A stretch of DNA of 62,510 nt from Bacteroidales bacterium (GTDB lineage Bacteria > Bacteroidota > Bacteroidia > Bacteroidales > UBA932), in the NCBI GenBank assembly GCA_017477465.1, contig JAFUVU010000020.1, forward strand, positions 1-62,510, given 5' to 3'. Numbering within the stretch: the first letter of the stretch is position 1; every line of letters starts with the position of its first letter. Positions 7,042 to 20,551 of the stretch are shown one piece after another. The notes under the pieces are model-generated. The model was given only the letters and a program-made list of their open reading frames with translations, had not been told where the DNA came from and did no database searches. Position numbers and translations under genes: made by a program.

Positions 7042-8211
7042 TCAGTCAAATAGAATATGCATTATGGCGTCGGTGGCGCCTGCGTTGGCGCGGCAATAGG
7101 CGCCGGCCTTTTCCGATGCCTCCGGAAGCATTGTCGGAAGCTTGTCAAACCAAGCTACGGCTTCATCGGGTGTTGAAACTGACGTTCCGGCACCCAGTTC
7201 CAGCAAATCGACAAAATGCGTTTCGCGTAAATAATTGGGACCCACCAGCACGGGCAGTCCGTAAACTGCCGGTTCGATGACGCTGTGTGGCATATAGGCA
7301 AAAGCGCCTCCTACCACTGCGGCATATCCGTAACGGTACAGATGGGCGAGCATCCCCACTTTATCCACGATAAGCACCTGAACCTTTTCTATTCCGGCAG
7401 GGTCTTTCTCGAAATCGGAATACAAGGCGCTGCGGCCCTTCACGGCAGCAATCATTCTGCGCATGGGGCCAGGGTCCATTTCCTTGGGGACGACCATGAT
7501 TTTTTTATCCGGATGGGAGTTGGCAATGGCTATGATGAGGTCGTCGTCACGTAAGGAAGAGGTGCAACCGCCGATCAGAACTTTTTCCCCGTTGCACCAT
7601 TTCTCGGTCAGGGCGTCGCTCCAGGGTTGGGCTGCGATTTTGAGCACGCGGTCCACACGTGCGTCGCCTACCTTCTCCACGTTGGGAGCGCCGATGGATT
7701 GCAGTAACTCCTTGCTCCTTTCGTTCTGGACTAAAATATGCCGATAGCAGGTCCTGAAAATCTGTCGGCGACCTCTTCCCAGCCATCCGAAGAGGCTGGA
7801 GCCCGGTTCTGTCCTGACAGACATGATGGAAGCCTCAATCCCTCTTCTTCGAATCTCCCTCATCATATTGGGCCACAGTTCCCCTATGGTGAAAATCGCT
7901 TTGGAAGGGCGTACGATGTCCAGGAAACGGCGCATATTGCGGCGGGTGTCGAAGGGCAGGTAGAAAACCCAGTTCGCTATCGGCCAGTCCTTTCTGGCTT
8001 CATATCCGTTGGGGGAGAAGAAGGTAAGCAGAATACCGGCCTCCGGAAAGCGCTGGCGGGTGGCTTCAATCACCGGCCGCGCCTCTTCGAATTCTCCCAA
8101 GGAGGCTACGTGGAACCAGATGGTGCCTTCGGCCTTTCCGCAGGCATCGGCCAATTTTTTCAGCAGTCCTATCCTTCCGGCGACGGCCTTGTATATTTTC
8201 CCTGGCTTCAT
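7042..8211 (-). CDS. WaaA-like (GT30) ulosonic-acid glycosyltransferase
   Basis: Related to Kdo transferase WaaA, which moves CMP-Kdo onto lipid A. The 389-aa protein keeps the SLGE motif with the proposed catalytic Glu40 (FHVASLGEFEEARPV) and the LLTFFSPNGYEARK block. It lacks the usual N-terminal membrane-anchor segment. Canonical family motifs are altered: GELWPN for YEFWPN, and GGAFAYMPHSVIEPAVYGLPVLVGPNY for the GGGFG-HN-EA version. Start ATG 8211 lies 4 nt after ptmE, making it the last gene of the nonulosonate operon. It is the only glycosyltransferase there, so it may transfer the nonulosonic acid instead of Kdo. A plain Kdo transferase is the alternative. Confidence 0.8.
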   Translation of the reverse strand: MKPGKIYKAVAGRIGLLKKLADACGKAEGTIWFHVASLGEFEEARPVIEATRQRFPEAGILLTFFSPNGYEARKDWPIANWVFYLPFDTRRNMRRFLDIVRPSKAIFTIGELWPNMMREIRRRGIEASIMSVRTEPGSSLFGWLGRGRRQIFRTCYRHILVQNERSKELLQSIGAPNVEKVGDARVDRVLKIAAQPWSDALTEKWCNGEKVLIGGCTSSLRDDDLIIAIANSHPDKKIMVVPKEMDPGPMRRMIAAVKGRSALYSDFEKDPAGIEKVQVLIVDKVGMLAHLYRYGYAAVVGGAFAYMPHSVIEPAVYGLPVLVGPNYLRETHFVDLLELGAGTSVSTPDEAVAWFDKLPTMLPEASEKAGAYCRANAGATDAIMHILFD

Positions 8212-8215
8212 CGAA

Positions 8216-9226
8216 TTAGTCCCTGACTGTGAGTTCGCAGGCCTTCTGATACTCCTCGAAACTGCCGATGTCGATCCAGATACCGTTGATGGGGAAGTGT
8301 ACCACCTTGCCGCCGTTCTCGGAAAGAGTGTTGACAAGGTCCGTGGCATGGAACACTTTGCCTTCAGGGATGAGATCGAGGACGGATTTCCGTATCAGGT
8401 ATATGCCTGCATTGATGTAATAGTTGAATACGGGCTTTTCCTTTATGGCTTTTACCTGTCCGTTGCGAAGTTCTATGATGCCGTAAGGAATGGAAACGTC
8501 GTAGGGAGTCGTCGCTATGCACATATCAGCCCCGGTTTGACGGAAATGCAGATAAAATGCTTCCAGGTCGATCTGGGTGTAAATGTCCGAATTCATGACA
8601 AGAATCTCATCCTTAAGATTCTCGATGAAGCGGAGCGAGCCGATGGTTCCCAAAAACTCCTGCTCCCGTACGCACTGAACTCCGGAAACGTCCTTGAAAT
8701 GATCGATGATCTGTTCGGCCAGATAGTTCACTGTGACATAGGTATTGCTTACGCCATAGCGATGCAGGCGCTGGACCAAATGGTCGATGATGGCCTTTCC
8801 GCCCACTTTCAGAAGCGGTTTTGGGATATTGTCGGTAAGGGGACGGAGGCGCTTTCCAAGACCGCCTGCCATGAGCACGGCGTCAACGGGAAGGATGCTT
8901 TTCTTCTCCTTGAGGTTGATGGTGTCCTTCAGCCTGCCTTCGCCGTCAAGCACGGGGATTATGAAAATATGCTTTTCCCTGCAGTTTTTGAGGAATTCCA
9001 CATCAATTTCGGACTCCTTTACCGAGCGGAAGGAACGGTACATGAAATCTTCTACGGTGCGGTCCAATCCCTTGCCGGCCATGATGCCGCGGCGGATATC
9101 CCCGTCGGTGAGGGTACCCTGCACGCGTCCGTCTTCGGAGAGGACAAAAAGCGTCTGAAAATCAAGTTCTTCCAGCCTGGCCAGGGCTTCCTGGACGGAG
9201 GAATGTACGGAAATTGTATTGTTCAT
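8216..9226 (-). CDS. ptmE: CBS-domain nucleotidyltransferase, PtmE-like
   Basis: It has an N-terminal CBS pair (about residues 1-115) followed by a sugar-phosphate nucleotidyltransferase domain that starts VDAVLMAGGLGKRLRPLTDNIPKPL, the NTP-binding signature. In Campylobacter, PtmE is the GlcN-1-P guanylyltransferase that commits sugar to the GDP-linked legionaminic acid route, and it has this same CBS-NTP architecture. The start ATG 9226 lies 1 nt after the ptmA stop, arguing for translational coupling. The catalytic domain has the expected metal-binding MNSDIY block. Substrate assignment is by architecture and operon context. Confidence 0.85.
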   Translation of the reverse strand: MNNTISVHSSVQEALARLEELDFQTLFVLSEDGRVQGTLTDGDIRRGIMAGKGLDRTVEDFMYRSFRSVKESEIDVEFLKNCREKHIFIIPVLDGEGRLKDTINLKEKKSILPVDAVLMAGGLGKRLRPLTDNIPKPLLKVGGKAIIDHLVQRLHRYGVSNTYVTVNYLAEQIIDHFKDVSGVQCVREQEFLGTIGSLRFIENLKDEILVMNSDIYTQIDLEAFYLHFRQTGADMCIATTPYDVSIPYGIIELRNGQVKAIKEKPVFNYYINAGIYLIRKSVLDLIPEGKVFHATDLVNTLSENGGKVVHFPINGIWIDIGSFEEYQKACELTVRD

Positions 9227-9227
9227 A

Positions 9228-9983
9228 TTAAATCGCTGTCCAACCGCCGTCGGCGGCAATATTCTGTCCGCTTACGTAGCGAGCCATGTCGGAGGCGAGG
9301 AAGATGGCTACTGGAGCTATGTCTTCGGGTTCGGCCATGCGCTTCATCGGACATTTGTGTGTATAATTGCGGATAAATATTTCGTTCTGCTCCGGGCTGT
9401 TCTTGTCGAAAACGCCGCCGGGAGATACGCAGTTCACGCGTATGTTCCACTTGCCAAGATATGAAGCCAGGTAACGCGTGAAATTGATTATGCCACCTTT
9501 GATGGCGCAGTAGGCGCCGGTGGAGGTGCCGCCGTATTCTTCGTAAATGGTAAAATCGTTGCCCACGATGCCGTAAATGGAGCCGAAGTTGACGATTGAA
9601 CCACCTTTCTGCTCCATCATCACCTTCGCCACTTGCTGGTCAAGATAGAAAACGCTGTCAAGCTGCAGCTCGACATTGCGTTTGAAATGCTCGAAGGGCT
9701 CTTCTTCGAAGAAATAGTCGCTCCAATCCTTTGTATGAGGATATGCGGCATTGATAAGGGCGTCTATGCGGCCGAAGTGCTCCCGGACAAATGCCACCAG
9801 CGAATCTATGGAGGCATTGTCGGAGAGGTCCAGTCGGAAGGTTCCGGCCTCGGCGTCGGTGTCCAGGGCTATGTCGGCATTGATTACACGGGCCCCGACT
9901 TCCTTGAGTTCTTTCACTATTTCCTTGCCGATGAGGCCGCAGCCCCCGGTAACAATGACTGTCTTGTCTTTTATCCCAAGCAT
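9228..9983 (-). CDS. ptmA: Short-chain dehydrogenase/reductase, PtmA-like
   Basis: An SDR-fold oxidoreductase of 251 aa. The N-terminal TGGCGLIG is the NAD(P)-binding motif, NAA and a Ser-x12-YCAIK catalytic set are visible, and the C-terminus ends in GQNIAADGGWT as in classical SDRs. PtmA works with the PtmF oxidoreductase in the early steps that supply the glucosamine derivative for legionaminic acid. It overlaps ptmF by 13 nt. The precise reaction cannot be read from the sequence. Confidence 0.82.
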   Translation of the reverse strand: MLGIKDKTVIVTGGCGLIGKEIVKELKEVGARVINADIALDTDAEAGTFRLDLSDNASIDSLVAFVREHFGRIDALINAAYPHTKDWSDYFFEEEPFEHFKRNVELQLDSVFYLDQQVAKVMMEQKGGSIVNFGSIYGIVGNDFTIYEEYGGTSTGAYCAIKGGIINFTRYLASYLGKWNIRVNCVSPGGVFDKNSPEQNEIFIRNYTHKCPMKRMAEPEDIAPVAIFLASDMARYVSGQNIAADGGWTAI

Positions 9984-10876
9984 AATTTCAAAACTTCGTA
10001 AGCTTCAAATACATCGTTGTCAGATGATACGGCATTCTTCTGCACAAGTTCCACGAAACTGCGCATCTGTGCCATATAGTCTGCGTCCGGCTCCTGACTG
10101 CTCCGGAAGAGCACTTCGCCGGTATCGTCTGTGACTGTTCCGGCGGCGAAATCGGCCGTCCAGGTGCTTCCTTCGGCTACTATTTCAAGTGTGCGTTTAT
10201 AGTCCTTTCTGTAATAATTGAGGACTACGGAGGCCGTGAATCCGGTATATTCCCAAAGATAATGTGCGTAGTCCACGGCCGGGATTCCCAGCGTTGAGGA
10301 ATTGCGCAGCAGTTTGTGCGTACGCAGTGGCCGTCCGAAGAGCCACCACAGGTAGTCGAGTTCGTGGATAAGGTCCAGATGGACGCCGCCGCCCATTTCC
10401 GGCCGGGCGCTGTAGCCGTTTTTCCAGTCGGTCCCGGGACGCCAGGAAGGCAGCCAGGAGCCGCAGTACACGTTCACCTCGTTAACTTTCAGATCATTGA
10501 CATGCTCCCGAATGAACTGCATTGTATCCAGATAGCGCATGTCGCAGGCTACGTGGGTGAGAATGCCCGTCCGGCGGATTTCTTCCAGCAGCCCCTCTTG
10601 GCCGAGGGTGGAAAATACGGGCTTTTCGATATAGAGAGGAATCCTCAAGGCAAGAAGTTTCCTGACTGTATCTGCGTGGCAGGAGGTGGGGTTGGAAACG
10701 ATGGCAAAGTCAAAGCCTCCGTCCAGGGGCAGGTCGAAGACATCGGCCACTCCTTCCACGGGAGCCGCTCCGCGGGAACTGCGCCACGCCGTGAATTGGA
10801 CGCAAGGGTCCAGACGTCTGAGGGTGGCAATATGTTTCCGGGCTATCGAGCCCAGTCCTACCAGCAGTACTTTCAT
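9971..10876 (-). CDS. ptmF: Gfo/Idh/MocA oxidoreductase, PtmF-like
   Basis: An NAD(P)-dependent sugar oxidoreductase of 301 aa. It has an N-terminal Rossmann motif GLGSIARKHI, the family's EKP signature (YIEKPVF near residue 95) and a C-terminal alpha/beta substrate domain with GGGVHLDLIHELDYLWWLFG. In Campylobacter legionaminic acid clusters PtmF pairs with PtmA. It overlaps legF by 4 nt upstream and ptmA downstream. The name rests on the cluster composition as well as on the fold. Confidence 0.8.
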   Translation of the reverse strand: MKVLLVGLGSIARKHIATLRRLDPCVQFTAWRSSRGAAPVEGVADVFDLPLDGGFDFAIVSNPTSCHADTVRKLLALRIPLYIEKPVFSTLGQEGLLEEIRRTGILTHVACDMRYLDTMQFIREHVNDLKVNEVNVYCGSWLPSWRPGTDWKNGYSARPEMGGGVHLDLIHELDYLWWLFGRPLRTHKLLRNSSTLGIPAVDYAHYLWEYTGFTASVVLNYYRKDYKRTLEIVAEGSTWTADFAAGTVTDDTGEVLFRSSQEPDADYMAQMRSFVELVQKNAVSSDNDVFEAYEVLKLCLG

Positions 10877-11589
10877 AATTCAAAATCCAGTTTACCTTTT
10901 TCCAGAAGGTATTCCATGTACTCGAAGTCGGCAGGTTCGTCCAGGTCGAAGCAGCGGTGCGGCATTACATAGACCAGCGACAGGGGAGTGTTAGGATCCC
11001 TCCGGCCTTCTTCGAAGAATTTGCGCCGATAAATGTAGTAGGAGGCATTCATGTCGTAAACCTTCGGGGCGCTCTGCCGGCTGGTGTAGGCGCTGCCGTC
11101 GCAGACCAGGTCGTAATAGCCGCCGGGCTTTTCCTCCACCATGTTGAAGTACGGATTGCGGCCGGCCGGGCTCACCGAGAAAAGATCCAGGGCTACAGGG
11201 TCCGCTTCCAGGATGCGGAAGCCTTCCAGGACATCCTCAAGTGTACGTAAGGGCGACGTGCAGTCCATGTCCAGCACATAGTCATATCGGGTGTTCCAAT
11301 GCTCTTCGGCCCAGCGCCAGGCGTGATCAATGGCGTCCAGCTTGCCGCAGGTGTCGTTGGCCAGTTCAGCGGGCCGATGGTAGGGGGTCTCCAACCCCAG
11401 GGAGGCCGCCACGGCCGTGATTTCCGCGGAGTCGGTGGACAGGATGATGTCGGCGCCGACGGCCGCCTGCACCTTACGGGCGCAGTCTATGGTATAGCCC
11501 ATCAGCGGTTTTCCGGCGATGGCCTTGATATTCTTCCCCGGGATGCCTTTGGAGCCGCCGCGGGCGCAGATTGTGATGAGCGTTTTCAT
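10873..11589 (-). CDS. legF: CMP-nonulosonate cytidylyltransferase
   Basis: It activates a nonulosonic acid with CTP to the CMP-sugar donor. The 238-aa protein begins TLITICARGGSKGIPGKNIK, the diagnostic acylneuraminate cytidylyltransferase motif, and has LDMDCTSPLRTLEDV and the C-terminal VYVMP...FDLDEPADF block. Neuraminate, legionaminate and pseudaminate enzymes share these motifs. The LegB/LegC/LegG/PtmE neighbours point to a legionaminic-type substrate. It overlaps legI by 4 nt. Confidence 0.88.
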   Translation of the reverse strand: MKTLITICARGGSKGIPGKNIKAIAGKPLMGYTIDCARKVQAAVGADIILSTDSAEITAVAASLGLETPYHRPAELANDTCGKLDAIDHAWRWAEEHWNTRYDYVLDMDCTSPLRTLEDVLEGFRILEADPVALDLFSVSPAGRNPYFNMVEEKPGGYYDLVCDGSAYTSRQSAPKVYDMNASYYIYRRKFFEEGRRDPNTPLSLVYVMPHRCFDLDEPADFEYMEYLLEKGKLDFEL

Positions 11590-12584
11590 AGCTGAATGGC
11601 TTGATTCTCTTTATAGTCCCGCTTTGCAGCAGTTCCGCATACTTCATCCCAATGCTCTGGGCTCAGGCCTTCAGGAGCCCGTTTCAGGGCAAGGTTGTCG
11701 GCCGCCAGTATTTCGCCTTTTTTAATGTCCCGCGCTGCTACGATGCGTTTGAGCACAACGCCGGAGATGGCTTTTTCACTGGCATTTGGCTCCTTTACGC
11801 CGCTGCCGAGAGCCTTTTCCACGGCGCGTATCTGGCGGCACATCTCGCCGAAGGCGGTTGGTTCCATGGAGGCGGCGTGATCCGGCCCTTCCATGTTCCT
11901 GTCAAGCGTCAGGTGTTTTTCAATTACGCTGGCACCGAGAGCTACGGCGGCAACCGGAACCTCTGTTCCCAGCGTGTGGTCAGAATATCCTACGGGGCAG
12001 CCCAGTTCCTCTTTTATGGTGAGCATGGCCCGCAGGTTAACTTCTTCCGCAGGGCATGGATAATTGGTGGTGCAGTGAAGGACGGTGATGTCTTTTGCCC
12101 CCGCATCCTTCAGAGTGCCGAAGGCGCGGCGCACCATCTCCATATCGGCCATTCCGGTGGAGAGGATGACAGGTTTCCCGCAGGCCCCGATGTGGCGGAG
12201 CAGGGGAATGTTGGTGATGTCTCCGGAGCCTATCTTTACCATCGGCATGCCAAGTCCCAGCAAGAAATCCACGTCTTCGGGATTGTCTCCTGTGGAGAGG
12301 AAGGTTATGCCGATTGAGTCGCAGTAAGCCTTGATTTTGGCGAATTGGTCGTAGCCCAGCTCCAGGGCCTTGAGCATTTGGAACTGAGATTCTCCGGCTC
12401 CGCTGTTGGCTTTTTGATAATCGGCCTTCTGCGTGTGAGGAGCTATGATTTTTTCCGTCACCCAGGTCTGAAACTTTACGGCATCGGCCCCGGCGGCCTT
12501 GGCGGCATCACAGAGCTTGAGCGCCAGTTCCGGACGGCCGTTGTGGTTAACGCCGGCTTCTGCTATTATGAAGGTCCTAGTCAT
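11586..12584 (-). CDS. legI: N,N'-diacetyllegionaminate/neuraminate synthase family
   Basis: It condenses a 6-carbon amino sugar with phosphoenolpyruvate to form the 9-carbon nonulosonic acid. The 332-aa protein starts RTFIIAEAGVNHNG, a NeuB hallmark, and carries VKFQTW, VILSTGM and YSDHT...VIEKHLTLDR active-site strands in a TIM barrel. The C-terminal SAF/antifreeze-like domain covers about residues 270-330 (AARDIKKGEILAADNLALKRAPEGL). The gene overlaps both neighbours, so it is part of one transcript. Confidence 0.92.
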   Translation of the reverse strand: MTRTFIIAEAGVNHNGRPELALKLCDAAKAAGADAVKFQTWVTEKIIAPHTQKADYQKANSGAGESQFQMLKALELGYDQFAKIKAYCDSIGITFLSTGDNPEDVDFLLGLGMPMVKIGSGDITNIPLLRHIGACGKPVILSTGMADMEMVRRAFGTLKDAGAKDITVLHCTTNYPCPAEEVNLRAMLTIKEELGCPVGYSDHTLGTEVPVAAVALGASVIEKHLTLDRNMEGPDHAASMEPTAFGEMCRQIRAVEKALGSGVKEPNASEKAISGVVLKRIVAARDIKKGEILAADNLALKRAPEGLSPEHWDEVCGTAAKRDYKENQAIQL

Positions 12585-13575
12585 GGTAGTCTCTCAGTAA
12601 ATCGGACTCGCGGGCAATGACGACATCGTCATACATGAGCATCAGGATTCCCTCGTCATATTGGCCGATTTCTCTCTCGCAGGCCTTTCCGTCCATGTTC
12701 TGCATGATGTACTTGACGAAGTCAACCCCGGCTCCATAGGCGTGGAGATACGCTCCGCCGAAGCGCGGGTTGATTTCCGACAGGTAATACTGACCGTCCT
12801 TGAAGAAGAAATCCATGTCGCAGGGGCCGCTGAGTTCCAGGACGGAAACCACTTCTTCCACAAAGTCGAAGAGTGCGGGGTCCTTGAAGCTGATGGTCTT
12901 GGATGCGCCGCCGATGCGGGTCTCAATCTTTCTTTTGCTGAAGACCGATATCACCTTGTGGGAGATGCAATCGACGTAAACATCTGCGTCACAGTCTCCT
13001 CCGGTCATAAGTTCCTGGATGATGTAGTCGTAGGCGCCTTCGGCGAACAGGTCCTTGAGGGTTTCCATGTCGTTCACCTTTCTTGCTCCGACGCTGCCGC
13101 TGCCTCTCACCGGCTTGATGAAAACGGGGAAATCGATTTCACCGGCGCCCAAGCCTGCCTGGAAATCGGCCAGGGTCCTGTAGGTTAGTACGGTCCTTAC
13201 GCCCTTTGAGCGAAGGTGCCTGAACATCAGGTATTTGTCCATACAAAGCCGTGCCGTCTGAAGGGAGGGGCAAAGAGGAAGTATGCCTTTTGCCTGGAAT
13301 TCGTCCCTGTGGGCGGCCAGGACTTCGATTTCCGGATCGATGAAAGTGCCGACTGCGCGGATTTTCTCCTTCTCACAGATGGCAAAAACTTCATCCATAT
13401 AGTGAGGATCCGTGATTTTCGGAGTCACGTACATTTTGTCGGCCAGGAAGAGGGCTGGCGCTACCGACCAGTTGTCGGTGCCTACGACAAGGCCCTTTCC
13501 GGAGAGAGATTTCCGAAAATCAAGCATCAGTCGGCCGCGTCGGCCTACATTGCAACATAGCAGGTTATAATCCAT
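12577..13575 (-). CDS. ATP-grasp ligase embedded in nonulosonate operon
   Basis: An ATP-grasp fold protein of 332 aa related to carbamoyl-phosphate-synthase-like carboxylate-amine ligases. Visible are the P-loop region FPVFIKPVRGSGSVGARKV (about residues 145-163), the acidic ELMTGGDCDADVYVD and the metal-binding C-terminal YYLSEINPRFGGAYLHAYGAG. The N-terminal CNVGRRGRL resembles the pre-ATP-grasp domain of such ligases. It overlaps legI and the PLP decarboxylase gene. Standard legionaminate pathways have no ATP-grasp enzyme. A role in attaching an amino acid or other acyl group to the sugar amine is inference. Confidence 0.82.
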   Translation of the reverse strand: MDYNLLCCNVGRRGRLMLDFRKSLSGKGLVVGTDNWSVAPALFLADKMYVTPKITDPHYMDEVFAICEKEKIRAVGTFIDPEIEVLAAHRDEFQAKGILPLCPSLQTARLCMDKYLMFRHLRSKGVRTVLTYRTLADFQAGLGAGEIDFPVFIKPVRGSGSVGARKVNDMETLKDLFAEGAYDYIIQELMTGGDCDADVYVDCISHKVISVFSKRKIETRIGGASKTISFKDPALFDFVEEVVSVLELSGPCDMDFFFKDGQYYLSEINPRFGGAYLHAYGAGVDFVKYIMQNMDGKACEREIGQYDEGILMLMYDDVVIARESDLLRDYHD

Positions 13576-14704
13576 AAGCGTGTAAAAAGTCTTGGGCGCT
13601 CCATTGCTTGCTTGTCAGGCTGTAACAGCCGTCTTCAAGTACATAGACCCGAGGGAAATAACGGATGAACAGGGGAGAGAGCGCCATGGTGTAGGCTCCG
13701 GTATTGGCGAAGGCGATGCGGTCGCCATTGCGCAGGGCAGGAGCATTATCCAAGTGGAAGAGGCGGTCGTTTTCCAGACAGGTGCCACCGACGACCGTCT
13801 GGTTTTCGGCAAGCGGTCTGTCGGCTTCCACTGTGGGGAAGGATTTGAAATAGTCGGTTTTGCGGAAGAAGGGATCTACGTCGTTGCGGCTGCCGTCGCA
13901 GACGACTATCGTATCCCCATTTATCTTTTTCACGTCCAGAACACTGGTGAGGAAGGAAAAAACACCTGCGCAGAGGGCGTTGCCCGGTTCTACGATGATG
14001 CGGGCATTAGGGAATTCCTTAAGGCCTTGGGCCAGGGTGGCGGCATAGTCTTCGAATGTGGGCTTTCCGGGCATATCGCCGAAGTAACCTCCGCCGATGT
14101 CGATATAATCGGGGCTGATGCCAAGAGTCTTGAGTACATCGGAGGCCTTGGCCGCGATGGCGGAATACACTTCCAGGCTGCGGGAATGCGAGGTGCGGTG
14201 GAGGTGAAGACCTGCAATGCGCACGTTCGGAAGTGCCCGGATGCGGCCTGCCGCCTCTTTCAGTTCTTCCATGCCGAAGCCGAAGCGGGAAAAGGTCTCG
14301 TCCTCCGGCAGGGCCACGTTCACCCGCAGTCCCACTGAAGCCTGGCAGTCGGAAGGGAGCTCTTCCAGCCAGTCCAGTTCGCGCTTGCTGTCTATATTGA
14401 CCACCTGGCCGTCCTCGACGGCTTTCAGAAAATGCTCTTTGCCTTTGACGGGACCGTTGAAAACCAGGCGTTTGAATCCAAGTGCCGAGGCAAGGTCGTA
14501 TTCAGTGTCTGAAACCACCTCCGCTGTTGCGCCCTCTTCCATGAGGATGCTCAGCAGGGTTGGATGCGAATTCGTCTTTACTGAATAGGCTACTTCCGAG
14601 ACGGGAAAATGCTTGGCCAGCGCATCACGGAATTCGCGGTACAGTCTTCTGAGTTCCGATGCGTCCAGGATGAAACAGGGGGTGCTGAGCTCTTTAAAGG
14701 TCAT
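13565..14704 (-). CDS. Fold-type III PLP-dependent decarboxylase
   Basis: An alanine-racemase-fold decarboxylase related to diaminopimelate/ornithine decarboxylases. Lys43 in VAYSVKTN is the expected PLP lysine. GLHLHRTSHS, DIGGGYFGDMP, IIVEPGNALCAG and the GGTCLENDRLF cysteine strand match the family's cofactor and substrate sites. At 379 aa it is slightly shorter than LysA. Its place between the ATP-grasp ligase and legG in an overlapping operon suggests it acts on the same aminoacyl group. BtrJ/BtrK of butirosin (ATP-grasp ligase plus Glu-ACP decarboxylase) is a precedent for such a pair. A housekeeping LysA is less likely in this context. Confidence 0.85.
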   Translation of the reverse strand: MTFKELSTPCFILDASELRRLYREFRDALAKHFPVSEVAYSVKTNSHPTLLSILMEEGATAEVVSDTEYDLASALGFKRLVFNGPVKGKEHFLKAVEDGQVVNIDSKRELDWLEELPSDCQASVGLRVNVALPEDETFSRFGFGMEELKEAAGRIRALPNVRIAGLHLHRTSHSRSLEVYSAIAAKASDVLKTLGISPDYIDIGGGYFGDMPGKPTFEDYAATLAQGLKEFPNARIIVEPGNALCAGVFSFLTSVLDVKKINGDTIVVCDGSRNDVDPFFRKTDYFKSFPTVEADRPLAENQTVVGGTCLENDRLFHLDNAPALRNGDRIAFANTGAYTMALSPLFIRYFPRVYVLEDGCYSLTSKQWSAQDFLHAYGL

Positions 14705-15791
14705 GGAAGTATTCTTTTAAGTGCTTGACTATGAGCTCGGAAGTGTGTCCCGCGCCGGGAAGGATATCGGGCATGAATCGGCCATTTACAGTTCCGATGG
14801 CGCGCCGGATGTCTTTTTGGGAAGCCTCGCAGTTTATTATGCAGGAGCTCATTTTCCTGCCTGTCTGGCGCTTGCCGATATTAATCACGGGCGTCCCGAA
14901 AAGCGGTGCCTCGATAACTCCGCTGCTGGAATTGCCGATCATAAAGGCTGCTTCCTTCATCATACCAAGGAAGCATTCCTCTCCAAGGGAATCGTAGAGA
15001 TGGAATTCTTTTCTGCTGCTATACAGCGCATTCATCTTGTTCCCGCAAAGGTCGGCATTGGCTTTGGTAAGCACTACTTCGTATCCTGTCAGTCCGGATA
15101 AGGCTTCCAGCATTGCCTCTGCCATGGCGATGTTGTATTCTTCGCTTTCCTTGGTCTCCGGATGGAGGGCGGCAAGTGCCCATGGCTTGCCTGAATCAAG
15201 GCCCAGGCGGGCGGCCAGCTCTTCTCTTGCAGGGATCTTGGCCTTTAGGATATTCTCGGCCCCTGGTTCTCCAACTTCAAAGACGTTCTTTGAGCTGTTC
15301 CGGAGGCGGATTACTTCACTGGCGGCTTCGGGGTTGTTGGGGAAATGTACGGTTGCGAGCATGGTGACGGCATTGCGTACAGCGTCGTCAATGGCGCCTT
15401 CTGTGTGTTCTCCTCCTGCGATATGGGCGATTGGAATCCCCATCAGAAGCGCAGTGCCGCAGATTGGCAGAAGCTCGTAACGATCTCCAAGGACGAGAAT
15501 CAGGTCCGGCTTGATGGCGGAAAAGGCATCGGCAAATTGCCGGGCGCAGCTGCCTGCCTCGCGGGCGATACCGGCAGGGGAACGGTCCTTGGAAATGTAG
15601 TCGATGCGGGCGTCTATGCGCAGGCCGTCGGCCTCAATCTGCTTCCAGGTTTCCCCGAAGGCGGGACTAAGGTGTGTGCCGGTCACAACAAGGCGGATGT
15701 CGAAGGCAGGCTCTTCCCGCAGGGCTTCAATGGTCCGGCGGAGAAGGCCATATTCGGCCCGGGTTGCGGTGATGACGGCTATTGTCTTCAT
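14694..15791 (-). CDS. legG: UDP-GlcNAc 2-epimerase, hydrolysing type
   Basis: In this pathway it hydrolyses and epimerises a nucleotide-linked 2,4-diamino-6-deoxy sugar to release the 2-epimer used by the synthase. The 365-aa protein starts KTIAVITATRAEYGLL and has LVLGDRYELLP, HIAGGEHTEGAIDDAVRNA and GNSSSGVIEAPLFGTPVINIGKRQTGR, the NeuC/LegG family signature. ATG 15791 overlaps the legC stop as ATGA. NeuC, for sialic acid, is the alternative; the adjacent LegB and LegC make LegG more likely. Confidence 0.88.
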   Translation of the reverse strand: MKTIAVITATRAEYGLLRRTIEALREEPAFDIRLVVTGTHLSPAFGETWKQIEADGLRIDARIDYISKDRSPAGIAREAGSCARQFADAFSAIKPDLILVLGDRYELLPICGTALLMGIPIAHIAGGEHTEGAIDDAVRNAVTMLATVHFPNNPEAASEVIRLRNSSKNVFEVGEPGAENILKAKIPAREELAARLGLDSGKPWALAALHPETKESEEYNIAMAEAMLEALSGLTGYEVVLTKANADLCGNKMNALYSSRKEFHLYDSLGEECFLGMMKEAAFMIGNSSSGVIEAPLFGTPVINIGKRQTGRKMSSCIINCEASQKDIRRAIGTVNGRFMPDILPGAGHTSELIVKHLKEYFHDL

Positions 15792-16933
15792 AGCTTGGGG
15801 CTGCTTGGAATATTGACTATGCGGTCGGCCAGCCATGCTGTATTGGCCAGGCCGTCGGTTTCGCAGTTTTGGAACATGGGAAGGCGGTTGATCATCTCCC
15901 AGACGGGGCGCGTCATCACTCCGTTGTCGTTGCTGTAATTGAGGAATTCATCCCTTGCAGTGCGGTTTTCCAGAATGATGGCATTGAGCCAGTAATTGGA
16001 GCGGCAGCCTTCCGGTTCGGTGAAGAAACGCACGCCCGGCATGTCCTTGAAAAAGGCCTCGTAAGCTGCTGCAATCCGGCGTTTGCTTTCGATGAAACGG
16101 TCTAAATTCTCCAACTGGGCGCATCCGAGGGCCGCATTGATATTGGGCATGCGGTAATTATAGCCGATTTCGTCGTGCCTGAACTCCCAGCGGTGCGGAA
16201 GTTTTGCCTGGGTGGTAAGGTGCTTGGCATGGGCGCCAACTTGCTCGTCTTGGCAGAGAATCATGCCGCCGCCACCGGTGGTGATGGTCTTGTTGCCGTT
16301 GAAACTGAGCGCGCCGATAGGGGAAAAAGTGCCCGTATGCTGCCCGTGATAAAGACTGCCGATACTTTCTGCGGCGTCTTCCACCACCTCGATATGCCAC
16401 TTGCGGCAGATGTCGATGATATCCTTTATGCGGACGGGATGGCCGAAGGTATGCATGGGAACGCAGGCTTTTACGCGGCGTCCGCTGTTACGGTTATAAC
16501 AGCCGTCTTCCCGCAGCTCTGCGTTGTTTTCCAACCAGCCCCGTAAGGCGTCCGGGGACAGTCCCAAGGTTTCGCGGTCCACGTCCAGAAAGACAGGATG
16601 TGCGCCCAGGTAGCTGATGGCGTTGCATGTGGCAATGAAAGAGAGGGCCTGAGTTAGCACCTCGTCATCCCGTTTTACGCCGGAAAGGAGCAGGGACATG
16701 TGCAGGGCATTGGTGCCGCTTACGCAAACGACGGCCCGCACAGCCCCGGTATAAGCGGCTATTTCTTTTTCGAATCTATCTACAAACGGTCCTACGCTGG
16801 AAACGAAAGTACTGTCGATGCACTCCTCAAGGTATTTCTTCTCATTGCCGGCGAAAACCGGCACGCTGAGGGGAACAAAGTCCTTTGTGGCGTACAGTTC
16901 GTGTACAAAATCTGTTATTTGTTTGTATTCCAT
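15788..16933 (-). CDS. legC: PLP aminotransferase, DegT/LegC type
   Basis: It transfers an amino group to C4 of the 4-keto-6-deoxy nucleotide sugar made by LegB. The 381-aa DegT/DnrJ/EryC1 protein has SGTNALHMSLLLSGVK, VEDAAESIGS and the PLP-binding lysine in SFNGNKTITTGGGG. RMPNINAALGCAQLE, also typical, follows. It overlaps legG by 4 nt (ATGA) and follows legB by 1 nt. Confidence 0.9.
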   Translation of the reverse strand: MEYKQITDFVHELYATKDFVPLSVPVFAGNEKKYLEECIDSTFVSSVGPFVDRFEKEIAAYTGAVRAVVCVSGTNALHMSLLLSGVKRDDEVLTQALSFIATCNAISYLGAHPVFLDVDRETLGLSPDALRGWLENNAELREDGCYNRNSGRRVKACVPMHTFGHPVRIKDIIDICRKWHIEVVEDAAESIGSLYHGQHTGTFSPIGALSFNGNKTITTGGGGMILCQDEQVGAHAKHLTTQAKLPHRWEFRHDEIGYNYRMPNINAALGCAQLENLDRFIESKRRIAAAYEAFFKDMPGVRFFTEPEGCRSNYWLNAIILENRTARDEFLNYSNDNGVMTRPVWEMINRLPMFQNCETDGLANTAWLADRIVNIPSSPKL

Positions 16934-16934
16934 T

Positions 16935-18143
16935 TTACATTTTTTGATCCAGGTTCTTTCCCTTTTCCTCGTGGACGAAGTTGGGTACGAAGGCGTGGAT
17001 GGCTTCCACCACTTCTTCCTTTGTGAAGGCGGGATCGGAAAAGATGCTTTCCAGGCTGTTCATGAAAGCGCGTACTTCCGGAAGCTTTTTCCGGGGGCTC
17101 TCAAGAATGACGCCCAGTGAACGGAAGCGATTCATGTCCAGTTTCTCCCCAGGGACGAAGAACTCTTCGAAGTCTTTTTCGCCGGTTGTGTCGCTTTTAC
17201 TGTAAACGACAGGATAAACGCTACTGTCCGGCGACATGGTTGCCGCAAAGTCGCGGGCATCGGCATCTGAGGAAAACTCCTTCTTTACAAGGCCGTTGGC
17301 CTGCAGGAATGCGTCGCATATCTCCGAGAAGGTTTTCATCTGCTTTTCCTCCAGGCGAGGGAAAAAGATTTCTCCGCTTTGCCCCAGGATGCATGCCATC
17401 AGGCATATCTGGCCGCTTTCCGCCGGTGAGACGAAATATCGTTTGACGTCGCTTGGAGCAACGAGGGGCTGGTGTTTCCCGAGACGTTGGATCCATGAGT
17501 CGGGAAGGGAACCGTTGCTGAAAGCCACATTGGCAAAGCGGGCCGTGGTAACGTGGATGCGGTCCTTGTAAGCCATTATGAGGTCTTCCATTATGCGCTT
17601 GCTGGCACCCATGACGTTCACCGGATTGGCGGCCTTGTCCGTGCTTACACAGAAAAACCGCTGCGGGGGGAACTCGCACATCAGGTCCATAAGGCCTGCG
17701 GCTTTGATGACGTTGTTTTCCAGAAGGGCCTGTACGGCGTATTTGTCCTTTTCGCTGCGGACGTGCTTGTGTGCGCTGAAATTCGCTACGATGTCAAAAC
17801 CTTTCTCTTCGCGGAAAATGCGTTTGAAGATAGGATCGGCATAGTTTAGGGCATAGGTTCTGTATGTTTCCGGCATGGTGAGGCCGGCGGTGGAACGGAG
17901 GTCTCTGGTGAGTTCGGCCAGGCCGTTTTCGCTCAGATCCACAACCGTAAGAGAAGAGGGGCCGAAGCGGACAATCTCTTTGATGAACGAGCTGCCGATG
18001 GAACCGGCGCCGCCTATCACGCAAACCTTCTTCCCTGCAATCTGAGCCCTGATTTGCGAGGCATGGGCCTGAAGGTCATCCTCGAAGAAACTTCTTGTTC
18101 TGCCGGTTACGTGTTCAGCGATGAATCTCTCTATATCTAACAT
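16935..18143 (-). CDS. legB: UDP-GlcNAc 4,6-dehydratase family
   Basis: The first gene of the nonulosonate operon. It makes the 4-keto-6-deoxy intermediate from a nucleotide-linked GlcNAc (GDP- or UDP-linked). The 402-aa extended-SDR (Polysacc_synt_2) protein has GGAGSIGSS for NAD binding (about residues 42-50), the SAHKHV catalytic segment and STDKAANPVNVMGASKRIME. ATG 18143 is used instead of the in-frame TTG at 18146. The C-terminal extension EDFEEFFVPGE is seen in LegB-type enzymes. Promoter TAATTTTG lies at 18176-18169. Confidence 0.88.
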   Translation of the reverse strand: MLDIERFIAEHVTGRTRSFFEDDLQAHASQIRAQIAGKKVCVIGGAGSIGSSFIKEIVRFGPSSLTVVDLSENGLAELTRDLRSTAGLTMPETYRTYALNYADPIFKRIFREEKGFDIVANFSAHKHVRSEKDKYAVQALLENNVIKAAGLMDLMCEFPPQRFFCVSTDKAANPVNVMGASKRIMEDLIMAYKDRIHVTTARFANVAFSNGSLPDSWIQRLGKHQPLVAPSDVKRYFVSPAESGQICLMACILGQSGEIFFPRLEEKQMKTFSEICDAFLQANGLVKKEFSSDADARDFAATMSPDSSVYPVVYSKSDTTGEKDFEEFFVPGEKLDMNRFRSLGVILESPRKKLPEVRAFMNSLESIFSDPAFTKEEVVEAIHAFVPNFVHEEKGKNLDQKM

Positions 18144-18168
18144 CAATTCTCAGTCAAATTATAAAATA

Positions 18169-18232
18169 CAAAATTAGAAAAAAAAAGGAATAATCCCAAT
18201 GGCGAACTATCTGTAATAAATTCGTATATTTG
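18169..18232. promoter_or_regulatory. Divergent promoters, legB operon / rfbA
   Basis: The minus strand has TAATTTTG at 18176-18169, giving a leader of about 20 nt for legB. The plus strand has TATATTTG at 18225-18232, ending 6 nt before the rfbA ATG at 18239. The two polysaccharide-precursor operons are therefore driven from one 95-bp intergenic region. Confidence 0.6.
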
Positions 18233-18238
18233 TGCACT

Positions 18239-19144
18239 ATGAAAGGAATTGTACTCGCCGGAGGCTCCGGCACCAGACTGTATCCGATAACCAAGGGCGT
18301 AAGCAAGCAGTTGCTGCCTATTTACGACAAACCGATGGTATATTATCCTGTGTCCGTGCTCATGCTGGCCGGCATACGGGATATTCTGATCATCTCCACT
18401 CCGGAGGACACGCCGGCTTTCCGGCGTCTTCTGGGTGACGGATCGGCTTTTGGTGTAAGCTTTTCGTATGCCGTTCAGCCTTCTCCGGACGGGCTGGCGC
18501 AGGCTTTCATCATCGGCAAGGAGTTTATAGGCGACGATTCCGTGTGCCTTGTTCTTGGCGACAACATCTTCCATGGCGCGGGATTTACGCCGCTTCTGAG
18601 GGATGCCGTAAAATCGGCAGAGGAAGATGACAAAGCCACGGTATTCGGCTATTGGGTAAGCGATCCGGAGCGCTACGGAGTGGCCGAATTCGACAAAGAC
18701 GGCAACTGCCTTTCCATAGAGGAGAAGCCTGCCGTTCCAAAGAGCAATTATGCAGTGGTGGGGCTTTATTTTTATCCGAATAAAGTGGTGGACGTTGCCT
18801 CGAGTATCAAGCCAAGCGCCCGCGGAGAGCTGGAAATCACTTCAGTGAACCAGGAATTCCTCAAATGCGGCAAGCTGAAAGTGCAGACCCTTGGCCGCGG
18901 CTTCGCATGGCTCGACACCGGCACGCACGACTCCCTGGCCGAGGCATCCATCTACATAGAAACTATCGAAAAGCGGCAGGGCCTCAAGGTCGCCTGCCTT
19001 GAAGCCATCGGCCTGCAAAAGGGATGGATTTCGCCCGCCAGGCTGCGTGAAGTGGCTCAGCCGATGTCCAAAAACCAGTATGGCCAATATCTTCTGAAAA
19101 TGGCCGATGAATTTGAAAAGCACGGCCCCGTAAACTATGATTAA
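18239..19144 (+). CDS. rfbA: Glucose-1-phosphate thymidylyltransferase
   Basis: It forms dTDP-glucose, the first step of dTDP-L-rhamnose synthesis. The 301-aa protein opens [20 protein letters not shown] and has [16 protein letters not shown] and VLGDNIFHG, all RmlA signatures. ATG 18239 is chosen; it sits 6 nt after a TATATTTG box, so the mRNA may be leaderless. The gene overlaps rfbC by 8 nt. No rfbB (dTDP-glucose 4,6-dehydratase) is present in the window. Confidence 0.95.
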
Positions 19145-19691
19145 AGTCATTGAAACGCAGATTCCCGGCGTCGTAATCATCGAACCGGCGGTGTTCGGTG
19201 ATACGCGGGGCTATTTTCTCGAATCCTGGAATCAGCGGGACTTCGAGGAGGCCGTCGGGCCCGTAAATTTTGTCCAGGACAACGAGAGTAAAAGCCGGTA
19301 CGGAGTGGTTCGCGGCCTGCATTTCCAGAAGGCTCCTTACTCGCAAAGCAAGCTGGTAAGGGTAGTGAGCGGCAAAGTGCTGGATGTGACGGTAGATATC
19401 AGGAAAGGCTCTCCAACTTTCGGCCGGCATGTAGCAGTGGAACTGAGCGGGGACAGCCACAGGCAAATCTTCATTCCAAGCGGTTTTGCTCATGGTTTTG
19501 CCGTTTTAAGCCCGGAGGCCGTCTTCCAGTACAAGTGCGACAAATTTTATAATCCAGATGCGGAAGGCGCAATCTCCTGGGACGATCCGGACCTGGGAAT
19601 AGACTGGCATCTTCCTCTTGAGGATATAATTCTGTCGGAAAAGGATAAGCATCATCCTTTCCTTAAGGACATCAATCCGGAATGCCTATGA
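19137..19691 (+). CDS. rfbC: dTDP-4-dehydrorhamnose 3,5-epimerase
   Basis: It epimerises dTDP-4-keto-6-deoxyglucose at C3 and C5. The 184-aa cupin-type protein has [10 protein letters not shown] near the N-terminus, the catalytic-His segment [33 protein letters not shown] and [12 protein letters not shown]. It overlaps rfbA and, by 10 nt, rfbD, so the three are translationally coupled. Confidence 0.95.
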
Positions 19692-20551
19692 AAATCTTGG
19701 TGACGGGTGCCTGCGGGCAACTTGGCATGAGCCTTCGTGCAGTGCTGCCGGCCGGTACTGTCTTTACGGATGTAGTGGAAGCTCCGGAAACTACATATCT
19801 TGACATTACGGACAGGCAGGCCATAAAGCGGCTCGTGTCGGCAGAAAAGGTGGACTGCATCATAAATTGCGCCGCCTATACCAACGTGGAAGCGGCGGAA
19901 GACAATTACGACCTTGCGGAACTTCTGAACGCCAAAGCGGTGGAAAACCTTGCCGCAGTAATGAAAGAGGCCGACGGCATGCTCGTACACATCTCTACGG
20001 ACTATGTCTTCGGGCTGGAGCCGTACAACACACCCTGCAGGGAGGACCAAAAAGGCACGCCCACAGGCGTTTACGGACTCACCAAGCTTCACGGAGAAGA
20101 GGCGATACTTTCAAGCGGCGTACGTCACATCATTATCCGTACATCTTGGCTATACAGCGAATATGGCAAGAACTTCGTAAAAACCATACTCCGTCTGATG
20201 GCCGAAAAACCCTCATTGAAGGTTGTATATGACCAGGTGGGCACTCCCACTTACGCCGGCGACCTTGCCCGGGCCATTTGGCAGATGCTCCTGCAGCCCA
20301 AGTTCGGCATTTTCAATTATTCCAACGAGGGCGTGTGCTCCTGGTACGACTTTGCCAAAACCATTGCCGATTATTCCGGCCATCTGTCATGCGACATTCA
20401 GCCTTGCCGCAGCAGCGAATTCCCGTCCCGAGTGCATCGGCCGGCATATTCCGTGCTTGACAAGGCCAAAATCAAGGATGCTTTCGGCTTGCGGATACCT
20501 TATTGGAAAGATTCGTTGAAGGCCTGTCTCTCAAGGCTAAAAGAAGCCTAA
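19682..20551 (+). CDS. rfbD: dTDP-4-dehydrorhamnose reductase
   Basis: The last step to dTDP-L-rhamnose. The 289-aa SDR protein starts [15 protein letters not shown] (an alternative start is Met3) and has the STDYVFGLEPYNTPCREDQ segment and a YGLTKLHGEE motif with catalytic Tyr and Lys. It ends convergently with the DUF47 gene, and their stop codons overlap by 4 nt. Confidence 0.94.
   Translation: MPMKILVTGACGQLGMSLRAVLPAGTVFTDVVEAPETTYLDITDRQAIKRLVSAEKVDCIINCAAYTNVEAAEDNYDLAELLNAKAVENLAAVMKEADGMLVHISTDYVFGLEPYNTPCREDQKGTPTGVYGLTKLHGEEAILSSGVRHIIIRTSWLYSEYGKNFVKTILRLMAEKPSLKVVYDQVGTPTYAGDLARAIWQMLLQPKFGIFNYSNEGVCSWYDFAKTIADYSGHLSCDIQPCRSSEFPSRVHRPAYSVLDKAKIKDAFGLRIPYWKDSLKACLSRLKEA

Follow-up and report, generated by a model that had tools for sequence, protein, structure and literature searches.

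An ATP-grasp ligase and a PLP decarboxylase in the LegH interval of a legionaminic-type operon from Bacteroidales

Background

The Campylobacter GDP-legionaminic pathway runs through LegB, LegC, LegH, LegG, LegI and LegF, together with Ptm genes whose chemistry we take to be GDP-linked. The LegC product bears a free 4-amine. A legionaminic-type (leg) operon is found in a 62,510-nucleotide stretch of DNA, here called the window, from a Bacteroidales bacterium (contig JAFUVU010000020.1 of assembly GCA_017477465.1). The operon resembles the Campylobacter pathway in containing LegC, LegG, LegI, a LegF-like protein, and proteins similar to PtmE, PtmF and PtmA. In contrast, LegH is absent from the operon, its interval contains genes for an ATP-grasp ligase and a decarboxylase dependent on pyridoxal 5'-phosphate (PLP), and the dehydratase is of the Polysacc_synt_2 type. 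The gene content tips the balance toward a pair that substitutes for LegH, probably by adding a decarboxylated aminoacyl group to the nitrogen that LegH would acetylate.

An exchange of this kind is known in Neisseria. Excerpts from two papers (PMC11130364, PMC6959607) describe PglB2, in which an ATP-grasp replaces the acetyltransferase domain of PglB and the sugar gains a glyceramido group for an acetamido group. The likeness to the window lies in an ATP-grasp that stands in for a 4-amine acetyltransferase acting on a 2-acetamido-4-amino-trideoxyhexose; the pglB and pglB2 genes, which yield N,N'-diacetylbacillosamine (diNAcBac) and glyceramido-acetamido trideoxyhexose (GATDH), are mutually exclusive (PMC11130364, PMC6959607). 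However, the group added in Neisseria is of the glycerate type, and those excerpts mention no decarboxylase (PMC11130364, PMC6959607). Also unlike the window, PglB2 uses a UDP-sugar destined for a lipid-linked glycan and not for a nonulosonate. In gene content and position, the window would fit a PglB2-type swap, a likeness drawn from published descriptions of PglB2. The exchange of an acetyltransferase for an ATP-grasp is already known, and the added decarboxylase is the new part.

ATP-grasp chemistry on surface glycans also occurs in Campylobacter jejuni, where, according to an excerpt from one report, an ATP-grasp domain joins serinol phosphate or ethanolamine phosphate to glucuronic acid (GlcA) in the HS:2 capsule (PMC11800379). 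The TupA-like ATP-grasp Cj1438 thus shares amide formation on a surface glycan with our proposal, but it amidates the GlcA carboxylate, whereas the expected acceptor of the window ligase is an amine (PMC11800379).

An earlier note on the window compared the pair with BtrJ and BtrK of butirosin biosynthesis. This parallel holds for the decarboxylase fold, which is shared, but in neither sequence nor structure does BtrK come closer than LysA or FslC. Butirosin biosynthesis runs on a carrier protein, a term that also occurs in the Protein Data Bank (PDB) name of 7ru7. In this it may differ from the pair, whose two overlapping genes leave no space for a carrier-protein gene between them. No text that combines BtrJ, BtrK and a decarboxylase was found in the searchable part of the open-licence PMC literature. 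FslC (7kh2) and SbnH differ in belonging to siderophore pathways and show 26% identity.

Results

The two genes form a rare but recurrent module

The earlier note described overlapping genes for an ATP-grasp and a type III PLP decarboxylase, and both open reading frames (ORFs) are indeed present on the minus strand (Table 1), with an 11-base overlap. The two genes are adjacent in all five genomes whose neighborhoods were read (the window and loci L001, L002, L114 and L115), and four of these, all but L115, keep the leg context. L001 (sheep omasum) and L002 (RUG395) are Bacteroidales metagenome-assembled genomes (MAGs) and the nearest named relatives of the locus. They carry the same operon, with decarboxylases that are 79 and 75% identical to that of the window and ATP-grasps that are 92 and 88% identical. 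L114 carries it too (65% for the decarboxylase, 80% for the ATP-grasp), so looking for the pair beside leg genes elsewhere, as the earlier note proposed, gave three further leg operons. L115 contains the pair at 46 and 63% identity, respectively, within a different glycan cluster. The window genome is G000, and L001, L002 and L115 lie in G980, G981 and G1014; with G1052, these make up the five pair genomes.

Linkage is also seen among protein clusters. The best 120 of 2320 decarboxylase clusters (E<=1e-20) were compared with 119 of the 120 ATP-grasp clusters listed out of 3466 (E<=1e-40), and 17 of the 120 decarboxylase clusters match an ATP-grasp cluster in the exact size of the longest contig, versus 0.6 on average and never more than 3 in shifted controls (n=120). 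Chance neighborhood was rejected on the basis of this metagenome linkage and of the adjacency in five of five genomes.

The decarboxylase was found only in its own genome in samples of 198 genomes of the order (E<=1e-40), 395 of the phylum (E<=1e-80) and 299 of the family (E<=1e-60), as was the ATP-grasp in 295 genomes of the order (E<=1e-50), and the locus is therefore rare. Genus samples centered on G981 and G980 (151 genomes each, with largely shared lists) add G1052 and G1014 beyond their centers. In viral contigs, none of 49 pattern matches is a relative, and a plasmid search returned seven records at 26-29% identity. L001 has no match to PtmF or PtmA, and its LegF and PtmE genes stand side by side (L001:13116-14838); the pair is therefore independent of PtmF and PtmA.

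LegH is not found in the pair genomes

The absence of LegH, which the earlier note had reported for the operon, extends to the rest of the genomes as searched with two acyltransferase profiles, A2 and PglD_N. Profile A2, which was built from 19 PglD-type proteins of leg operons, does not exceed 40 bits in G000 and G981 or 44 bits in G980, versus 290-302 bits in three genomes that have LegH in the operon (G105, G167, G190). PglD_N has no match in any of the five pair genomes, and it recovered the operon copy in all three LegH genomes. PseH gives no match in four of the five pair genomes and 23 bits in G981 (cut-off 93.1); it exceeds the cut-off in none of 13 genomes.

The interval between LegC and LegI or LegG

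LegC is over its cut-off in 49 of 295 genomes of the order (50 matches in total). We took 60 regions, comprising 49 over-cut-off matches (excluding that of the window), ten below the cut-off, and one extra stretch. The census consists of 27 loci, all with LegC over the cut-off and with LegI or LegG within six ORFs after LegC. The other 22 over-cut-off loci were left out for a contig end, for LegI or LegG lying further off (for example, L047), or for neither being recognized.

A PglD-type protein with PglD_N and Hexapep domains occupies the interval in 20 of the 27 loci, in some cases beside further ORFs (for example, L035, L036, L037, L058, L062, L076 and L081). Five loci have instead a different ATP-grasp, 22-27% identical to that of the window, and a HAD-type protein of about 104 amino acids (Table 1). 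Of the two remaining intervals, that of L080 (8524-9417, between LegC and LegG) contains a formyltransferase, and that of L056 a GNAT protein plus an Acetyltransf_6 protein. In all 27 loci, the interval includes one or more genes of an acyl- or amide-forming type, and it thus normally houses an enzyme that acylates the 4-amine.

A PglB2-like swap would explain the five ATP-grasp-HAD operons and, with a decarboxylase added, the pair. By analogy with Neisseria PglB2, the ATP-grasp and HAD genes are a candidate N-glyceroyl cassette. A protein search with this ATP-grasp gave no PglB2 name among the 120 matches listed. According to one report, the gene for the glyceroyl group at C7 of Tannerella pseudaminic acid (Pse) "remains elusive" (PMC6120980).

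Some intervals are more elaborate. L081:1518-4664 encodes a PglD-type protein, a glycosyltransferase-like protein, a formyltransferase and a PIG-L deacetylase, perhaps for an exchange of acetyl for formyl. Behind LegC in L047:13859-16489 and L056:10573-13199 are a protein of 343-344 amino acids, a formyltransferase (L047) or GNAT protein (L056), and an Acetyltransf_6 protein; these sets perhaps serve an aminoacyl-type acylation. The L056 copy of the 343-344-residue protein has no Pfam match, and the L056 Acetyltransf_6 protein has a weak FemAB match. In L060:10546-11495, the ATP-grasp is split across two frames, as in a broken gene or a sequencing error.

A second context in a glycan cluster

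In G1014, the pair (L115:8453-10683) immediately follows the gene for a PglC-like sugar transferase (L115:10667-11287), which it overlaps by 17 bases. A DegT aminotransferase gene 5.6 kb away on the same strand is closest to LegC (TIGR04181, 329 bits, cut-off 420). Also on that strand, 8 kb away, is a gene for a PglF-like dehydratase of 640 amino acids. A 4-aminotransferase of the LegC family is therefore common to the leg and L115 contexts. The G1014 genome has no PglD_N match. A hexapeptide protein in L118 scores 64 bits against NeuD, under the cut-off of 160.8.

The decarboxylase

The PLP protein scores 102 bits with Orn_Arg_deC_N and 32 bits with Orn_DAP_Arg_deC, versus 30 bits with Ala_racemase_N. 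It has the PLP lysine, active-site histidine, catalytic cysteine and two-domain fold of the fold-III PLP decarboxylase superfamily. We take the three residues to be K43, H169 and C309, all of which are invariant in 33 of 33 aligned relatives. The same alignment yields a family signature of EPGN242, DGSRxDxDPFF and CLExD. The AlphaFold2 model has a predicted local distance difference test (pLDDT) score of 89.7.

By sequence as by structure, the N-citrylornithine decarboxylase FslC (7kh2) is the nearest relative; SbnH and BtrK match too. The protein reaches 116.6 bits with the curated FslC model, below its cut-off of 500. It also fails the LysA model (143.3 bits, cut-off 297.9), as do the pair decarboxylases in general (142-148 bits). 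EPGN and CLExD, invariant in all 33 sequences, replace the EPGR arginine and CES(x)D of LysA as read from alignments. A separate, true LysA (382-393 bits) is present in four of the five pair genomes (G980, G981, G1052 and G1014), and a role for the pair in lysine biosynthesis was rejected on this ground and on the score far under the LysA cut-off.

The ATP-grasp ligase

The ligase scores 92 bits with PylC-like_N and 51 bits with ATP-grasp_3. It belongs among the PRK12767/PylC-like ligases (NF009406, 461 bits, cut-off 271), but not with PylC itself (TIGR03909, 28 bits, cut-off 248.3). The motifs KPxxGSGS and EINPRFGG, associated with ATP and Mg, are invariant in 28 of 28 aligned relatives. Structural neighbors of the AlphaFold2 model (pLDDT 88.5) include the L-amino-acid ligases RizA, BacD/YwfE and a Bacillus licheniformis ligase.

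Operon layout and adjacent genes

The operon runs on the minus strand from the 4,6-dehydratase (18146) to the PtmE-like nucleotidyltransferase (8216). From LegC down to PtmE, each neighboring pair of ORFs overlaps, and there is therefore no space for an extra gene between them. By inspection, the LegG translation start is probably 45 bases inside the called ORF. The earlier note listed LegB, LegC, LegG, LegI, LegF, PtmA, PtmE and PtmF as all present. LegC, LegG and LegI are over curated cut-offs, but LegF and PtmA fall below theirs, and the dehydratase falls outside the LegB type that TIGR04180 describes: it has no match to that model and only 51 bits with PseB (NCBIfam, cut-off 407.75). For the PtmE-like protein, no NCBIfam model is over its cut-off among the 25 listed. 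The roles given to LegF, PtmE, PtmF, PtmA and the dehydratase are thus putative ones, assigned from domain and position alone.

Table 1. Genes of the leg operon in the window, and leg loci of other genomes with an ATP-grasp and a HAD-type protein
Feature	Coordinates	Strand	Supporting match or remark
NDP-sugar 4,6-dehydratase of Polysacc_synt_2 type, putative LegB role	16935..18146	-	Pfam Polysacc_synt_2, 124.5 bits
LegC aminotransferase	15788..16933	-	TIGR04181, 559.5 bits (cut-off 420)
LegG, NeuC-type hydrolysing 2-epimerase	14694..15836	-	TIGR03568, 373.7 bits (cut-off 235.9)
Fold-III PLP decarboxylase, 379 aa, decarboxylase half of pair	13565..14704	-	Pfam Orn_Arg_deC_N/Orn_DAP_Arg_deC
PylC-like ATP-grasp ligase, 332 aa, ligase half of pair	12577..13575	-	Pfam PylC-like_N, ATP-grasp_3; NF009406
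LegI, NeuB-type nonulosonate synthase	11586..12584	-	TIGR03569, 450.8 bits (cut-off 399.65)
LegF-like CMP-nonulosonate cytidylyltransferase	10873..11589	-	Pfam CTP_transf_3; PseF 102 bits, below cut-off 205.7
PtmF-like Gfo/Idh/MocA oxidoreductase	9971..10876	-	Pfam GFO_IDH_MocA
PtmA-like short-chain dehydrogenase	9228..9983	-	Pfam adh_short_C2; FlagModPtmA 158 bits, below cut-off 350
PtmE-like nucleotidyltransferase with CBS domain, presumed GDP-sugar supply	8216..9259	-	Pfam NTP_transferase and CBS
ATP-grasp and HAD loci	L040:10554-11808, L042:10563-11811, L050:8207-9473, L053:10552-11794, L060:10546-11799		Between LegC and LegI, replacing LegH

Two further features flank the operon, as named by ORF reading. 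A gene resembling KdtA (3-deoxy-D-manno-octulosonic acid, or Kdo, transferase) is on the operon strand at window 7042-8349; in L001:14852-16042 and L002:16517-17683, the KdtA-like gene is on the strand opposite to the operon. Window 18230-20551 contains an RmlA, RmlC and RmlD set for dTDP-rhamnose that starts divergently, 83 bases from the first ORF of the operon.

Discussion

We infer a scheme for the substrate, the amino acid, the order of steps and the final sugar as follows. The dehydratase and LegC would make GDP-linked 4-amino-4,6-dideoxy-N-acetylglucosamine. The ATP-grasp would activate the carboxylate of an amino acid as an acyl phosphate and join the amino acid to the 4-amine. As a guess from chemistry, the amino acid might be Glu or Asp, attached through the side-chain carboxylate. 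The PLP decarboxylase would then strip the remaining alpha-carboxylate to leave an amide of the 4-aminobutyryl or beta-alanyl type, and LegG, LegI and LegF would convert the product to a CMP-legionaminic-type acid whose N7 carries a cationic acyl group. An already attached amino acid is also the substrate of FslC and SbnH, judged by their PDB titles, and of BtrK.

The interpretation in the earlier note, a sugar with a decarboxylated aminoacyl group in place of one acetyl group, draws partial support from the missing LegH, the linkage of the pair, its position in the acylation interval, its recurrence in an amino-sugar cluster without PglD, and the published ATP-grasp swap; the identity of the acyl group and the action of the ligase on this amine stay at the level of a proposal.

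Several observations weigh against this interpretation. As L115 shows, the leg pathway is not a requirement for the pair. In G1014, the pair is separated from the aminotransferase and dehydratase genes by three genes on the plus strand, of which two are sulfatase-like, and the link is therefore looser there than in the leg operons. PglD-type genes also occur outside the interval. In G957, one (265 bits, L042:16752-17375) lies some 1 kb past the PtmE gene of an ATP-grasp-HAD operon, on the opposite strand; others are in G919 (279 bits, on another contig) and, more weakly, in G060 (114.5 bits). Interval content alone therefore cannot prove the loss of LegH, and genome searches are needed. The G000 assembly (2.42 Mb) is 82.5% complete, which weakens the LegH negative there when taken alone. 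Weak support for the interpretation comes from LegC, which acts before acylation, and LegI, which acts after. LegC identity between pair and LegH operons (61.9%) is similar to that among LegH operons (62.7%), whereas LegI identity is 48.8% versus 58.1%. However, LegI of the ATP-grasp-HAD operons shows no such drop (58.0%), and we give the contrast little weight for this reason. Finally, the pair may act after LegG instead.

Alternative explanations differ in how much of this evidence they accommodate. The same product could arise in the reverse order, if the decarboxylase makes beta-alanine or 4-aminobutyrate (GABA) from free Asp or Glu and the ATP-grasp then joins the omega-amino acid to the 4-amine. 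This order fits the gene pair and all contexts equally well, and L-amino-acid ligases are among the structural neighbors of the ATP-grasp. However, FslC, judged by name, uses a citryl-linked ornithine, and Asn242 in place of the EPGR arginine and CLExD in place of CES(x)D are easier to read as signs of a different, possibly attached, substrate. We therefore regard the reverse order as unlikely, if still deserving of some weight. It is less probable that the decarboxylase yields a free amine with which the ATP-grasp amidates a glycan carboxylate, either that at C1 of the nonulosonate or that of a uronic acid. The C. jejuni HS:2 capsule offers an example of such chemistry, as an excerpt describes (PMC11800379), and the L115 pair can work without leg genes. 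Yet the LegC amine would then be left unacylated, since LegH is not found; no uronate dehydrogenase was recognized among the subset of L115 neighbors that was scanned; and both contexts share the LegC-family aminotransferase.

LegH activity might instead come from an unrecognized acetyltransferase, with the pair modifying something else. The Halorubrum legH gene sits apart from the other leg genes in the portion of a report that covers it (PMC6137143), the LegH-type gene of G957 is just outside its leg operon, and the searches used two acyltransferase profiles on genomes that include the incomplete G000. Against this are the lack of any PglD-type match by A2 in three genomes or by PglD_N in five, the lack of a PseH-type match in four of the five, and the acyl- or amide-forming gene type in the interval of 27 of 27 other leg loci, and we consider a hidden LegH improbable. 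Least probable by far is that the PLP protein acts as a racemase and provides the ligase with a D-amino acid, such as D-Ala, for an N-aminoacyl sugar formed without decarboxylation. Two clusters of the family are labeled 'alanine racemase' by their NCBI MAG names, and the N-terminal fold is shared, but the decarboxylase domains score far higher and the decarboxylase cysteine at position 309 is invariant, and the racemase assignment was set aside for these reasons. Alanine racemase is missing from the VIA-align structural tables, which was not counted as a ground for excluding it.

Conclusions

A broader proposal, which we hold tentatively and with slightly less confidence than the substitution for LegH itself, is that the pair is a transferable cassette that converts acylation of the LegH/PglD type to aminoacylation and decarboxylation. 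The products would be zwitterionic nonulosonic acids and bacillosamine-type sugars with a GABA- or beta-alanine-like amide. Within the searchable part of the open-licence PMC literature, we found no description of a nonulosonic acid class of this type, or of the pair in a nonulosonate, bacillosamine, O-antigen or capsule setting.

The acyl group on N5 or N7 of sialic-acid-like sugars sets charge and recognition. If the proposal is true, the cassette places a free amine on the sugar, making it zwitterionic, and it provides a gene marker with which to predict such sugars. More generally, the genes between LegC and LegI or LegG may predict the N7 acyl group: acetyl for the PglD type, formyl for a formyltransferase, probably glyceroyl for the ATP-grasp and HAD genes, and a decarboxylated aminoacyl group for the ligase-decarboxylase pair. 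Such an interval rule would make open assignments testable, for example that of the Tannerella glyceroyl gene.

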